DNA of 40,702 nt from Bacilli bacterium (GTDB lineage: Bacteria > Bacillota_I > Bacilli_A > ML615J-28 > CAG-698). The stretch is from positions 1 to 40,702 of the forward strand of contig JAGCUR010000011.1 of NCBI GenBank assembly GCA_017962745.1. Reading direction: 5' to 3'. Numbering within the stretch: the first letter of the stretch is position 1; each line of letters starts with the position of its first letter. Shown one piece after another: positions 6,254 through 11,996 of this stretch. Below the pieces are notes generated by a model that was given only the letters and a program-made list of their open reading frames with translations, did no database searches and was not told the origin of the DNA. A program made the translations under genes and the position numbers.

Positions 6254-7966
6254 ATGAAAAATATTGTTTTTAAAGTTATAAAATATTTAGGCACAGTACT
6301 TGCTTTCTTTAACTTATTAATGTTTTTTGCGATGAGACCTTGTTGGAGCGGAATAAGTTCTACGATTGGTTATGGTCAAAATGGTAAAGCGATACTTTAC
6401 TATTTACCAATCCTAATTTGTATATTATTCTTCTTAATCGCGATAAGCGATATAGTATTAAAGAAGTTATTTAATAAAAACTGGTTACATATTACTTATT
6501 TAGCAGTTAGCTTTGTATTCTTTGTAGTAATAATGGTGATTATTAAACTTGGGGCTATTGACTATATGCGTTTCATTTGGCCAAAGTTCTTTGAAGCATT
6601 AGGATTATTAGCAATTGTACTTGCCCTATACTGCTTAGTATTTATTTATCCAAAGAGTATTTTAAAAGATAGTAAACTATATAAATATTGCCTAATTGGT
6701 TTAGCAAGTTTATTGATGATTTTAATTGCATTAAACTTTTCAATCAATAGAATAACTTATAAACCAGTTGTATATGCGGTAGAAGATAAATATCAAATCA
6801 TCTTTTCTACAAACTCGGAAGCTACTGCTTGGGTAGAAGTAGATGGGGTAAACTACTACGATACATATAACGGATCAACTAAGAAATTTAGTAAGATCCA
6901 CAAAATAGAACTACCGATGGCAGTTCTAGATGCCGCTAAAAAATATACAGTTCATACGCAAAGATCAATATATTGCGGACCATTTGGTGGCTTCTTAGGT
7001 AAAGATATATCACTAACTTCTAACTTTAAACCAGTTGATACAAGCGACGGCATTCAATATTTATCATTTAGTGATATTCATATGAATGTCCGCCAAGCAG
7101 CCAAGACAGCAAGTTTTATTGAAAAGTATGACTTCCTAGTTTTAGCTGGCGATATCATTTCGGATGTAGAGACATTTGATGATGCCAACTTTAATAACTT
7201 AGTTGCATACACTATTACAAATGGTGAAATCCCAGTAGTATATGCTAGAGGTAATCATGACGTTAAAGGCAGATACGCAGAAGTTCTTCATAAATTCGTT
7301 GGTGCTAAAGGCGAAGACTTCTACTATAACTTCTACTTTGATGATATCTACGGAATTGTATTAGATATTGGTGAAGACCACGATGATGATTGGTGGGAAT
7401 ATTATGGAACTAGCCATTACGATGAATATCGTGATAAGCAAGTTGCTTTCTTAGAAGAAGAAATCGCAAAACACGAATATGACCACTTCGCATATCATTT
7501 AGCAGTATGCCATATTCCACCAGTATTTGTTAATTACCGTCACAACCACGAAGATATTAAAGCAAGACTTACTAACCTACTTAATCAAATGGATATCGAT
7601 ATGTTTTTATGCGGACATCAACACGAAATCATGATTTTTGAACCAGGTCTAATTACACCTAACACTAAATTAAACTATAACCCTAATTTCAAGAGTGGCA
7701 CATACAATGGTTATTTAACAGATTTCAACTTCCCATGCTTAATGATTAGTAAGCAAGGATTTACATTTAGTGATGATCAACCACTTTCTAAAACAAAGAG
7801 CCATATCGGTTTATTTATTGATGTAGACTTAACAAATAAAAAAGAAACATGTAGATACATCAATGGTAAAGGGGAAGATGTTAACGTTATGAACATGTTC
7901 TATGACAAAAATTATGGAACTAAAATCGTAATTGACTTAGATACTAAAGAGTTTATGCCAAATTAA
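6254..7966 (+). CDS. Membrane-anchored metallophosphoesterase
   Basis: The first 170 residues contain about five membrane segments, followed by a short beta-rich region and a calcineurin-like phosphoesterase domain from about residue 268. The metal-binding motifs are all present: D274-x-H276, GD-x-ISD, G333-N-H-D336, the histidine in VCHIPP, and G454-H-Q-H457. The 570-aa protein therefore most likely hydrolyses a phosphomonoester or diester at the membrane surface. Neither the substrate nor the side of the membrane can be told from the sequence. It is monocistronic, with its own extended -10 promoter and a strong hairpin after the stop. Confidence 0.88.
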   Translation: MKNIVFKVIKYLGTVLAFFNLLMFFAMRPCWSGISSTIGYGQNGKAILYYLPILICILFFLIAISDIVLKKLFNKNWLHITYLAVSFVFFVVIMVIIKLGAIDYMRFIWPKFFEALGLLAIVLALYCLVFIYPKSILKDSKLYKYCLIGLASLLMILIALNFSINRITYKPVVYAVEDKYQIIFSTNSEATAWVEVDGVNYYDTYNGSTKKFSKIHKIELPMAVLDAAKKYTVHTQRSIYCGPFGGFLGKDISLTSNFKPVDTSDGIQYLSFSDIHMNVRQAAKTASFIEKYDFLVLAGDIISDVETFDDANFNNLVAYTITNGEIPVVYARGNHDVKGRYAEVLHKFVGAKGEDFYYNFYFDDIYGIVLDIGEDHDDDWWEYYGTSHYDEYRDKQVAFLEEEIAKHEYDHFAYHLAVCHIPPVFVNYRHNHEDIKARLTNLLNQMDIDMFLCGHQHEIMIFEPGLITPNTKLNYNPNFKSGTYNGYLTDFNFPCLMISKQGFTFSDDQPLSKTKSHIGLFIDVDLTNKKETCRYINGKGEDVNVMNMFYDKNYGTKIVIDLDTKEFMPN

Positions 7967-8074: not shown

Positions 8075-8096
8075 CTTATAGATAAGGTGGGTAACT

Positions 8097-10553
8097 ATGA
8101 AGAAACAATCTAGATTACAACTTATATCCGAAATAATCCTACTCGCATATATCATAATGATGTTAGTAGTATTTTTGCTGTTCAAAGATATGCCAGAATT
8201 CTTGGTAGATGCCATGTTTGCTGGTTTTGGAGCAGTATTATGCGTAGTCATTGTATCTTTTATCTCGCGTAGAAGAGTTAAGAAGATGACTTATCTAGAA
8301 AATAGATTAGGTTTATGGAATTCAATTTCATACCGCGTTAAAGGCGCTGGTGAGACAGCATTCAATAAAATGCCAGTTGGTATTTTAGTTTATAACAACT
8401 CACTTGAAATTGAATGGGCTAACGCATATGCGAAGGAAGCATTTAGAAGTCAGTTAGTGGAAAGAAACATTCACAATGTAGACCCTAAACTTGCTGGTTT
8501 CCTTCAATCAAATACGATGAACTTCAATATCGTTTTATATGGTAAGACATATGAATGTAGTGTTATTAAGGAAAGTAACATTTTATATTTAAGAGATGTA
8601 ACTGAAAGAATTGAATATTTAGCTAGATATCGTGACAGAACTCTTGCCATTGGTATCTTGCACTTAGATAACTTAAACAATGCCTTAGGTTCACTAGATG
8701 CCAAAGAAAGATCAAGTCATATCACAAGTTTAATTGGTATCATTACTGAATGGTGCGAAAAATATAATATTTGTACACTAAGTTATTCTGATGAAAGATA
8801 TTTATTAGTATTCGACTATGTCATTTTGCAAGAAGTTATCAAAGAGAACTTTGATATCCTTGATAAGATTAGAGAATATTGTAGCGAACAGTTCATTAGA
8901 ATTACCGCAAGTATTGGTATTGCATGTAGCGACGTTGATGCGGATAAACTATTTGAACAAGCATCAAGTCAGTTAAGACTTGCCCTAGATAGAGGTGGTG
9001 ACCAAACAGCGGTATCAATCGATGGCGAGACATCATACTATGGTGCTAAGTCAATGGTTCTTGAAGGTAGAACATCAATTCAAATTCGTGTTAAAGCCCA
9101 AGAACTTGGTGATTTAATTAAACGTAGTGAAAAAGTATTTATCGTTGGTCACTCAGCAATGGATGCCGATGCCTTCGGTGGCGCTTTAGCTTTATACAAA
9201 ATGGTTAAAGCTTATAAAAAAGAAGTATACATTGCGATTGATGAAAAGAAGATTGATAAGACAGTAGAAACAATTTATTCTTCAATTAAAAATGAACATA
9301 CTAATGCGCTAGAATACTTTATGAGCGTTAAAGATGCTACTAAAGCATTAACACCAAATTCACTTTTAATTATTGTAGACTGTCAGTTCCAAAATATTTT
9401 AATCGATGAAAAGATTTATAAGAAGGCTAAACATATAGCTGTTATTGATCATCATAGAAGTAATGCTAATACAATTCATAACTATGATTACTTATACATT
9501 CAATCATCAGCATCATCTTCTGTTGAGTTGGTTGTAGAAATGTATGACTACCTAGAAGAAAAAGAAGCTGAAGAATTAGATGTATCAGATATCGAAGCAA
9601 CATGGATGTTAATTGGTATTGCGGTAGATACAAATAACTTTGCTTATCGTACAAGTAGTAGAACATTTAACGTACTTGCAAAACTTCAAACATATGGAGC
9701 ATCAACTGCTACGGCTAATAGATACTTACGTGATGAATATAATGAATTTATTAAGCGTAACTTATTCTTAAGCAATATTGATTTAATCAATGAACATTAT
9801 GCAATCGTAACTTGTGATGAAGAGATATATTCACGTGCTTTCATCGCTAAGATTGCCGATGACTTAGTACTTGTAGAAGGAGTTAAACTAGCCTTCTGTA
9901 TCGGTAAGATAGCTGAAGATTTAGTTGCTATTAGTGCGCGAAGCTTAGATGAATCTAATGCCCAAGTTGCAATGGAAAGACTTGGTGGTGGTGGCCACTT
10001 TAATAATGCCGCTACTCAAATTCAAGGTATTACCATTGAAGAAGCAAAGAGTAGACTAATTCAAGTAATTGACAATTTATATCAAGGAGACAATGGAACT
10101 ATGAAAGTAATCTTAGTAAAAGACGTTAAAGGTAAAGGTAAAGTTCATGATGTAATCGATGTAACTACTGGGTATGGTAATTACTTATTACGTAATGCCC
10201 AAGCGATTGAAGCAACTCCTGATAACTTAAAGAAACTAGAACAAGACTTAGCAGCAGAACAAATTGCTAACGACAAAAAGATTGATGAAGCAAAGGAATT
10301 AAAAGAAAAGATTAATTCAATAACTGTATCAATCAAAGTTAAAGTTGGTACGCAAGGTAAGTTATACGGTAGCGTAACTAGTAAACAAATTTGTGAAGAA
10401 TTAAAAGCTCAATATAATATTGAACTTGGTAAACACCAAGTAATGTTAAATAAGAGCGATATGATTAATGCATTAGGTACTTATAAGATTCCTATTTACT
10501 TACACAAAGAAGTAATAGCAAGCCTTACAGTATACATCGTAGAAAAGGAGTAA
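8097..10553 (+). CDS. gdpP-rplI: GdpP cyclic-di-AMP phosphodiesterase fused to ribosomal protein bL9
   Basis: Residues 1-668 are a complete GdpP: two membrane segments (about 10-29 and 38-58), a PAS-like region, a degenerate GGDEF domain where the motif reads YSDER, a DHH domain (HSAMDADAFGG, then D451-H-H) and a DHHA1 domain with GGGGH at 630-634. GdpP degrades the second messenger c-di-AMP at the membrane. Residues 669-818 are a complete 150-aa bL9, from MKVILVKDVKGKGKV through AIEATPDNLKKLE to GSVTSKQI and the C-terminal domain. In most Firmicutes these are neighbouring genes; here no stop separates them. The L9 methionine codon (10101) keeps an upstream AAGGAG, so free L9 could also be made. 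The start is supported by GGTGGG. dnaB follows after 3 nt. Confidence 0.95.
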   Translation: MKKQSRLQLISEIILLAYIIMMLVVFLLFKDMPEFLVDAMFAGFGAVLCVVIVSFISRRRVKKMTYLENRLGLWNSISYRVKGAGETAFNKMPVGILVYNNSLEIEWANAYAKEAFRSQLVERNIHNVDPKLAGFLQSNTMNFNIVLYGKTYECSVIKESNILYLRDVTERIEYLARYRDRTLAIGILHLDNLNNALGSLDAKERSSHITSLIGIITEWCEKYNICTLSYSDERYLLVFDYVILQEVIKENFDILDKIREYCSEQFIRITASIGIACSDVDADKLFEQASSQLRLALDRGGDQTAVSIDGETSYYGAKSMVLEGRTSIQIRVKAQELGDLIKRSEKVFIVGHSAMDADAFGGALALYKMVKAYKKEVYIAIDEKKIDKTVETIYSSIKNEHTNALEYFMSVKDATKALTPNSLLIIVDCQFQNILIDEKIYKKAKHIAVIDHHRSNANTIHNYDYLYIQSSASSSVELVVEMYDYLEEKEAEELDVSDIEATWMLIGIAVDTNNFAYRTSSRTFNVLAKLQTYGASTATANRYLRDEYNEFIKRNLFLSNIDLINEHYAIVTCDEEIYSRAFIAKIADDLVLVEGVKLAFCIGKIAEDLVAISARSLDESNAQVAMERLGGGGHFNNAATQIQGITIEEAKSRLIQVIDNLYQGDNGTMKVILVKDVKGKGKVHDVIDVTTGYGNYLLRNAQAIEATPDNLKKLEQDLAAEQIANDKKIDEAKELKEKINSITVSIKVKVGTQGKLYGSVTSKQICEELKAQYNIELGKHQVMLNKSDMINALGTYKIPIYLHKEVIASLTVYIVEKE
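10084..10103 (+). promoter_or_regulatory. Internal ribosome binding site and start codon for the L9 module
   Basis: AAGGAG at 10084-10089 lies 11 nt before an in-frame ATG (10101) that aligns exactly with the first residue of free-standing bL9 proteins. It falls inside the gdpP-rplI reading frame. The spacing is longer than ideal, so initiation may be inefficient; that it is used is an inference. Confidence 0.5.
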
Positions 10554-10556
10554 GTT

Positions 10557-11996
10557 ATGGAAGATACTTTTGATATGCCTATCATTCCACCAGTTGAAGA
10601 AGAAACAAGCGAACGTGGCCATAATTATTCACTTGAAGCTGAAAGATATGTTTTAGGCTGCGTATTACTTGATAGCGATGCTGTTGTAGAAGTAATGCAT
10701 AGAATCGATCATGATGATTTTTATGACCCACGTCATAAAGCAATCATGACAGCGATGGAACAAATCTATGAACGCGATGAAGTTGTAGAATACGCTAAGG
10801 TTTGGGAAGAATTAAAGAAGCTTAAAAAAGAAAACCAAGTTGGTGGTCCTGAATATATCGCTTCAATTCTAGAAAGTGTACCAAGTGTTGCTAACATCAC
10901 AAGTTATGTAGAGATTATTGAAGAAAACTCATTAATCAGAAGATTAATGAATTTCTGCGATAATACAAAACGTGAAATATTAGCTGGTAAGAAAAACTTT
11001 AAAGATTTAAGTTTAAACGCTGATGAGCAATTACAAAAGATCATTGAAAGAAGAAAAGTAATTAATGTTCAACGTATTAAGCATTTCACTGAAAAAGTTA
11101 TTGAAATGGCTGAAGGTGCAAAGCTTAATGAAAGCCAACTACTTGGCTTAGATACAGGATTTGTAGAGTTAAATAGAGCTACATCTGGTTTCCAAAAAGG
11201 TGAATTAATCATCCTTGCTGCTCGTCCTGGTATTGGTAAGAGTGCTTTAGCGATGAATATCGCTACATACACTGCTAGAAACACTAAAGCAAACGTAGCA
11301 TATTTCTCATTAGAAATGTCTAATGAACAACTTGCTGCCAGAATCTTAAGTAGTTTCTCTGGCATTGGCTTTAAGAAAATTAGAGATGGTAAGATCACTA
11401 GTAAAGAAATGCTACAACTTACTGGTGCGCAAGCTGAAGTTAATAAGCTTAACTTATATCTAGATGTAGAATGTAATACTAACTTAGATGATATTAGAGC
11501 AAAGTGTACAAAACTTAAACGTGAAGATAAACTTGACTTAATCGTTGTTGACTACTTACAACTTGTAACTGATACAAGAGGTGGTGGATCACGTCAAGAA
11601 GAAGTAAGTAGAGTATCACGTGGACTTAAGAAGATGGCTCGTGATTTTAACTGCCCAGTTTTAGCTTTGTCACAACTTTCTCGTGATGTAGAAAAGAGAA
11701 ACTTAGCAGCATCAGCTACTGCTGAAGATCATGAACCAGGCTTGTCTGACCTTCGTGAATCAGGAAGTATCGAACAAGATGCCGATGTTGTATTATTCCT
11801 TCATCGTCCAAAATCTAAACAAAGCGATAGTGAAGTTAGAAAAGCTACGAACCATCGTACAGTATTAATTATCGCTAAGAACCGTCAAGGTGAACAAACT
11901 AAAATTGATTTAATCTTTAGAGGTCCTCAATTCACATTCAGAGAAATGAATGATGCCGATAAAGAAGAACCAAAAGAAACTGAAATTAAAGAATAG
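10557..11996 (+). CDS. dnaB: Replicative DNA helicase DnaB
   Basis: The 479-aa protein is the hexameric helicase that unwinds DNA at the replication fork (called DnaC in B. subtilis). The N-terminal domain (EAERYVLGCVLLDSDAV) and the RecA-like core are complete: Walker A PGIGKSALAMN with K228, Walker B LIVVDYLQL, QLSRDVEKR, and the arginine-finger region LRESGSIEQDADVVLFLHR. AAGGAG precedes the ATG. The order gdpP-rplI-dnaB is conserved in Firmicutes. Only 3 nt separate it from the fusion gene, so it shares that promoter. Confidence 0.98.
   Translation: MEDTFDMPIIPPVEEETSERGHNYSLEAERYVLGCVLLDSDAVVEVMHRIDHDDFYDPRHKAIMTAMEQIYERDEVVEYAKVWEELKKLKKENQVGGPEYIASILESVPSVANITSYVEIIEENSLIRRLMNFCDNTKREILAGKKNFKDLSLNADEQLQKIIERRKVINVQRIKHFTEKVIEMAEGAKLNESQLLGLDTGFVELNRATSGFQKGELIILAARPGIGKSALAMNIATYTARNTKANVAYFSLEMSNEQLAARILSSFSGIGFKKIRDGKITSKEMLQLTGAQAEVNKLNLYLDVECNTNLDDIRAKCTKLKREDKLDLIVVDYLQLVTDTRGGGSRQEEVSRVSRGLKKMARDFNCPVLALSQLSRDVEKRNLAASATAEDHEPGLSDLRESGSIEQDADVVLFLHRPKSKQSDSEVRKATNHRTVLIIAKNRQGEQTKIDLIFRGPQFTFREMNDADKEEPKETEIKE

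Follow-up and report, generated by a model that had tools for sequence, protein, structure and literature searches.

We found that a single open frame in the window, the 40,702-nucleotide stretch of DNA analyzed in this study, joins the c-di-AMP phosphodiesterase GdpP to ribosomal protein L9, and that the L9 part carries a start signal of its own. This one gene very probably gives rise to two products, a membrane-bound GdpP–L9 protein and a free ribosomal L9. The new element is L9's own start within the fused gene; the fusion and internal initiation are each known separately.

A single frame encoding GdpP and bL9

The fused frame spans 818 codons, and its translation and domain matches describe a complete GdpP followed by a complete bL9 (Table 1). 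All six Pfam domains of the fused protein exceed their curated cut-offs, in the order PAS_GdpP, GGDEF_GdpP, DHH, DHHA1, Ribosomal_L9_N (residues 669–714) and Ribosomal_L9_C (residues 731–815). In addition, the C-terminal 150 residues give an end-to-end match to the TIGR00158 L9 model (model positions 1–147 of 148; 118.8 bits, as compared to the cut-off of 58.6). Among solved structures, the GdpP portion is closest to two c-di-AMP phosphodiesterases, 9n0l and 5xsi, and the C-terminal portion to bL9. The catalytic metal-binding residues of the DHH domain (H352, D356, D358, D428, D451-H452-H453 and D511) are all present in the window's protein, and these eight motif residues are invariant in all 141 rows of the alignment.

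A preliminary description of this DNA had proposed an in-frame GdpP–bL9 fusion with this domain content. Both proposals are confirmed: the frame is uninterrupted and recurs in 144 distinct fused genes, and the domains are borne out by the Pfam and TIGR00158 matches. The description had further asked for a check that the genome has no second rplI; a search of the whole draft genome (97% complete, 19 contigs) detected no second L9, and the fused L9 is the sole L9 match. A relative with 95% identity has the identical fused frame.

The window's genome has one diadenylate cyclase domain. A second DHH/DHHA1-type match lies elsewhere in the same genome (G000:C15:49043-49780), and is possibly a stand-alone phosphodiesterase or NrnA. 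Within the window, the gene just upstream of the fused gene (6254–7966) encodes a membrane protein that contains a calcineurin-like phosphoesterase domain. A 443-codon frame with a GTG start (872–2203) matches no Pfam model and shows hardly any Shine-Dalgarno pairing; its start may be misplaced.

Table 1. Features of the fused gdpP-rplI locus (window coordinates)
Feature	Position	Strand	Evidence
Fused gene gdpP-rplI	8097–10553	+	Open frame, domain matches, 144 distinct fused homologues
AAGGTGGG, Shine-Dalgarno-like site for the full-length start at 8097	8084–8091	+	Sequence; predicted pairing -7.2 kcal/mol
N-terminal hydrophobic region, about 2 putative membrane helices	8097–8276	+	Read from the translation
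PAS_GdpP domain, residues 81–168	8337–8600	+	PF21370, E 2.7e-17
GGDEF_GdpP domain, residues 188–311	8658–9029	+	PF24898, E 2e-24
DHH domain, residues 346–508	9132–9620	+	PF01368, E 1.2e-18
DHHA1 domain, residues 569–660	9801–10076	+	PF02272, E 2.9e-08
AAGGAG, L9 Shine-Dalgarno within the gdpP part	10084–10089	+	Predicted pairing -8.3 kcal/mol; conserved in the 140 single-copy fused genes
bL9 internal start codon ATG	10101–10103	+	Start codon in 140/140 single-copy fused genes
bL9 (rplI), 150 codons, in frame with gdpP	10101–10553	+	TIGR00158 E 2.6e-34, PF01281, PF03948
dnaB, replicative helicase, next gene	10557–11996	+	TIGR00665, 423 bits vs cut-off 385

Evidence for an internal start of L9

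How could a ribosome obtain an ordinary L9 from such a gene? The L9 part has its own Shine-Dalgarno sequence and ATG, which the preliminary description had overlooked, and the sequence comparisons below indicate that L9 almost certainly still starts independently within the fused gene. We used the 140 fused genes with a single L9 as the test set, keeping apart the four genes of the lineages with a duplicated L9. Codon 1 of L9 is a start codon in every one of the 140 (133 ATG, 6 GTG and 1 TTG); GTG accounts for 13% of the Val codons and TTG for 15% of the Leu codons in these fused genes. The Shine-Dalgarno pairing before L9 averages -9.2 kcal/mol, as compared to -1.2 kcal/mol at the 2434 other in-frame ATGs of the same genes, and a pairing of -6 or better precedes 92% of the L9 starts but only 2.3% of the other in-frame ATGs.

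We then compared this pairing with that of synonymous recodings that follow each gene's own codon use. The recodings yield an expected mean of -5.7, against the observed -9.2, with a pooled Z of -21; the fused genes are related, and pooled statistics of this kind overstate their independence. Applied to one gene at a time, the comparison is weak (median P 0.15), since the amino acids are dictated by the Shine-Dalgarno site itself. Across lineages the motif occurs mainly in two reading frames, and therefore different amino acids (EE, GG and GD) encode it. Moreover, the synonymous differences at codons -6 to -3 drop fourfold, to 0.11 from a background of 0.46 further upstream (43 independent pairs), and the 50 nt surrounding the L9 start fold less stably than randomly chosen in-frame positions (-3.0 vs -5.9, P 3e-23).

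In the window itself, the predicted pairing at the internal site is no weaker than that at the gdpP start and is typical of the window's genes, and its spacing of 11 nt is longer than the usual 5–9 nt. The standard anti-Shine-Dalgarno sequence is present in the two members of the order in which that 16S region is assembled; the 3′ end of the 16S of the window's genome is unassembled. An in-frame internal start codon with a conserved ribosome-binding site is one of the marks of dual-product genes that use internal initiation, and the single-copy fused genes carry both elements. A short out-of-frame mini-frame, ATG GAA CTA TGA, at window positions 10092–10103 overlaps the L9 ATG and may be either a chance occurrence or a coupling element.

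Two lineages with a second, free rplI

In the class sample, only four genomes have two L9 matches. Three belong to the genus g20 (L096, L101 and L102) and one, G081 (L151), to another family, and in all four a free rplI lies directly downstream of the fused gene. In the L9 tree, the free copies group with the fused copies of their own lineage (support 0.92 and 0.93), and therefore look like the results of two tandem duplications from a fused ancestor.

The internal Shine-Dalgarno sequence of the fused copy has been lost in both lineages. In g20 alone, the start codon has disappeared as well, and codon 1 of the L9 part is AAG or ACT. Among the 144 collected fused genes, these four are the only ones lacking the internal signal. 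Such a loss beside a free rplI is as expected if the internal signal serves to make free L9; the number of independent losses is two.

The fused L9 domains of these lineages have also changed in sequence. All of the 140 single-copy fused genes and all of the 35 separate L9s compared have G24 (100% each), whereas G90 occurs in 97% of the former and 91% of the latter. Both glycines are lost in all four fused copies of the duplicated lineages, while the free copies keep both. The fused L9 domain nevertheless remains full length there, and in the one close pair its dN of 0.17 and dS of 0.53 (0.10 and 0.62 for the free copies) show purifying selection on the fused domain of that pair. An L9 domain freed of its ribosomal duty thus appears to be kept in some form, though not as a typical L9.

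A possible role of the long product

Does the long product matter in its own right? In 113 genes, 38–41 residues separate the GGGGH motif from the L9 Met, and length changes in this stretch have therefore kept the frame. In addition, over 55 pairs picked from the fused genes, we counted 460 nucleotide differences within the final 13 codons before L9; none of them creates a stop codon, as compared to about 24 expected at random under the assumption of uniform mutation. These observations support selection for an uninterrupted fused frame. The maintenance of the frame in turn suggests that the long product probably has some value.

It is possible, although we would not put it as high as an even chance, that only the free L9 matters, and that the long product is a tolerated by-product with a functionless tail. 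The conserved ribosome-binding site and start codon, and the loss of conserved L9 residues from the tail once it is decoupled, would both agree with this explanation, and upstream translation may hold the internal site open, which would favor an uninterrupted frame. The lack of stops before the internal start is harder to explain in this way, as are the full-length tail of the duplicated lineages and the dN and dS of the close pair described above. A selected role of the L9 tail within GdpP, for example in dimerization, RNA sensing or ribosome sensing, is an idea that we put forward tentatively.

The preliminary description had suggested that the fused L9 docks on ribosomes, and thereby tethers them to the membrane or couples c-di-AMP hydrolysis to translation. 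We consider this unlikely. The maintained frame and the full conservation of the L9 residues in the single-copy fused genes are compatible with it, and the free and fused L9 could both bind ribosomes. However, free L9 translated from those very codons would account for the conservation, and the fused L9 lacks G24 and G90 in both lineages with a separate rplI, which indicates that tethering has not been kept there. The duplicated lineages thus speak against docking on ribosomes as what generally underlies the fusion, and are compatible with a structural or new role. As a general explanation, the suggestion found no support in our analyses; free L9 most likely comes from the conserved internal start. 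Tethering may nevertheless occur in single-copy fused genes such as the window's own.

Could a protease acting at the junction, rather than internal initiation, release L9? This would likewise provide free L9 from a single frame, but the residues before the L9 Met vary widely between lineages (EEKP, GDGK, GDNT and KGEK), and therefore no conserved cleavage site is present. Moreover, the initiation signals are conserved at the nucleotide level, and a protease has no need for GTG or TTG at codon 1, which makes cleavage a very improbable source of L9. Finally, an assembly or base-calling artefact masking a stop codon, which the draft state of the window's assembly (19 contigs) might suggest, is ruled out with near certainty by the recurrence of the fusion in 144 distinct genes from many genomes, including single-contig assemblies.

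Distribution and origin of the fusion

The preliminary description had left the spread of the architecture to a survey of databases and the species tree. Such a survey found the fusion in eight families. The description had missed that NCBI already names a family for this architecture. NCBIfam NF011110/PRK14538 is entitled “putative bifunctional signaling protein/50S ribosomal protein L9”, and the GdpP–L9 architecture is therefore no discovery of ours. Residues 46–817 of the window's protein align to positions 64–835 of the 838-position NF011110 model with 616.6 bits, below the curated 707, and the protein is accordingly a relative with the same architecture and not a member. The name of the model is silent on a separate L9 start. 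The model presumably stems from Acholeplasma and phytoplasmas; the family scoring highest against it, f10, includes several genomes of 0.6–0.9 Mb, which fits such a source. Acholeplasma laidlawii, which can be grown in the laboratory, is expected to belong to the fused clade.

Our set of 144 distinct fused genes covers eight families of the class, a sizeable part of the Bacilli, and includes genes from single-contig assemblies. Within the sampled class, the fusion is fixed in f1, f2 (the window's order), f10, f13, f15, f20, f21 and f22, while members of other families, such as f4, f8, f12 and f17, have separate gdpP and rplI. In the window's order, every genome in which L9 was matched carries the fused form. 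Two further members, G078 and G321, have neither an L9 nor a dnaB match; dnaB is the next gene, and the locus is therefore probably absent from their assemblies, an assembly gap being likelier than a loss of the locus.

A quick GdpP tree requires three changes between the fused and separate states. Grouping all of the fused genes into a single clade gives a tree that is no poorer a fit (log-likelihood higher by 8, AU P 0.61), and the fusion may have arisen once or several times. In the outgroups with separate genes (L142, L143, L147 and L148), rplI abuts gdpP or overlaps it out of frame, and its ribosome-binding site falls inside the end of gdpP or adjoins it. We propose that the ancestral gdpP and rplI were likewise adjoining or overlapping genes, and that the ribosome-binding site of rplI was located at the 3′ end of gdpP, either inside it or alongside. 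The loss of the gdpP stop codon, or a small insertion or deletion, would then have created one frame and left the rplI ribosome-binding site and start untouched.

Our literature search found no paper on the fusion, its expression or an internal L9 start. A survey of Mollicutes states that fusions are marked in its supplementary table (PMC4014445).

Comparison with known systems

Other Bacilli have the same two genes in the same order, separated by a stop codon or an out-of-frame overlap, whereas the window's gene is one frame. The separate gdpP and rplI are co-transcribed in S. pyogenes (PMC3711813). In a study of an atypical GdpP in Mycoplasma bovis, the separate L9 and DnaB genes, Mbov_0277 and Mbov_0278, are listed as down-regulated (PMC10720645). 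bL9 is reported to be nonessential, and to mediate local ribosome coordination in the polysomes of Mycoplasma pneumoniae (PMC10931766).

CcmM, CheA and E. coli infB each provide two products through in-frame internal starts, and in the case of CcmM, the long form serves as an anchor and the short form as a structural component (PMC11005335). The window's gene resembles them in having two starts in one frame. Unlike them, it would yield a complete ribosomal protein as the short form, and its internal start looks as if inherited from a once separate gene. The products of CcmM, CheA and infB have been measured, whereas the two products of the window's gene are deduced from sequence.

Proposed mechanism

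Initiation at position 8097 would produce the long form, a GdpP of 818 residues that is anchored in the membrane and ends in L9. Initiation at position 10101 of the same mRNA would produce the ordinary 150-residue bL9 for the ribosome. We infer that both products are made and that free L9 is the one that serves in the ribosome. The tail of the long form would then be either tolerated or structural, and would not need to contact the ribosome.

Implications

On a naive reading, the fused genes of eight families would describe cells without free L9, or with L9 tethered to the membrane. The evidence presented here suggests that these cells probably do produce a normal free L9, using a hidden start, and that genes can be fused without the loss of independent expression. 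The two lineages with a second rplI provide natural cases of this arrangement coming apart, and they raise the question of what, if anything, the L9 domain does for GdpP. If the tail does have a selected role, then a ribosomal protein domain would have been recruited into a second-messenger enzyme and kept even after the ribosomal duty had moved to a separate gene, and in the single-copy fused genes the same codons would also make the ribosomal protein.
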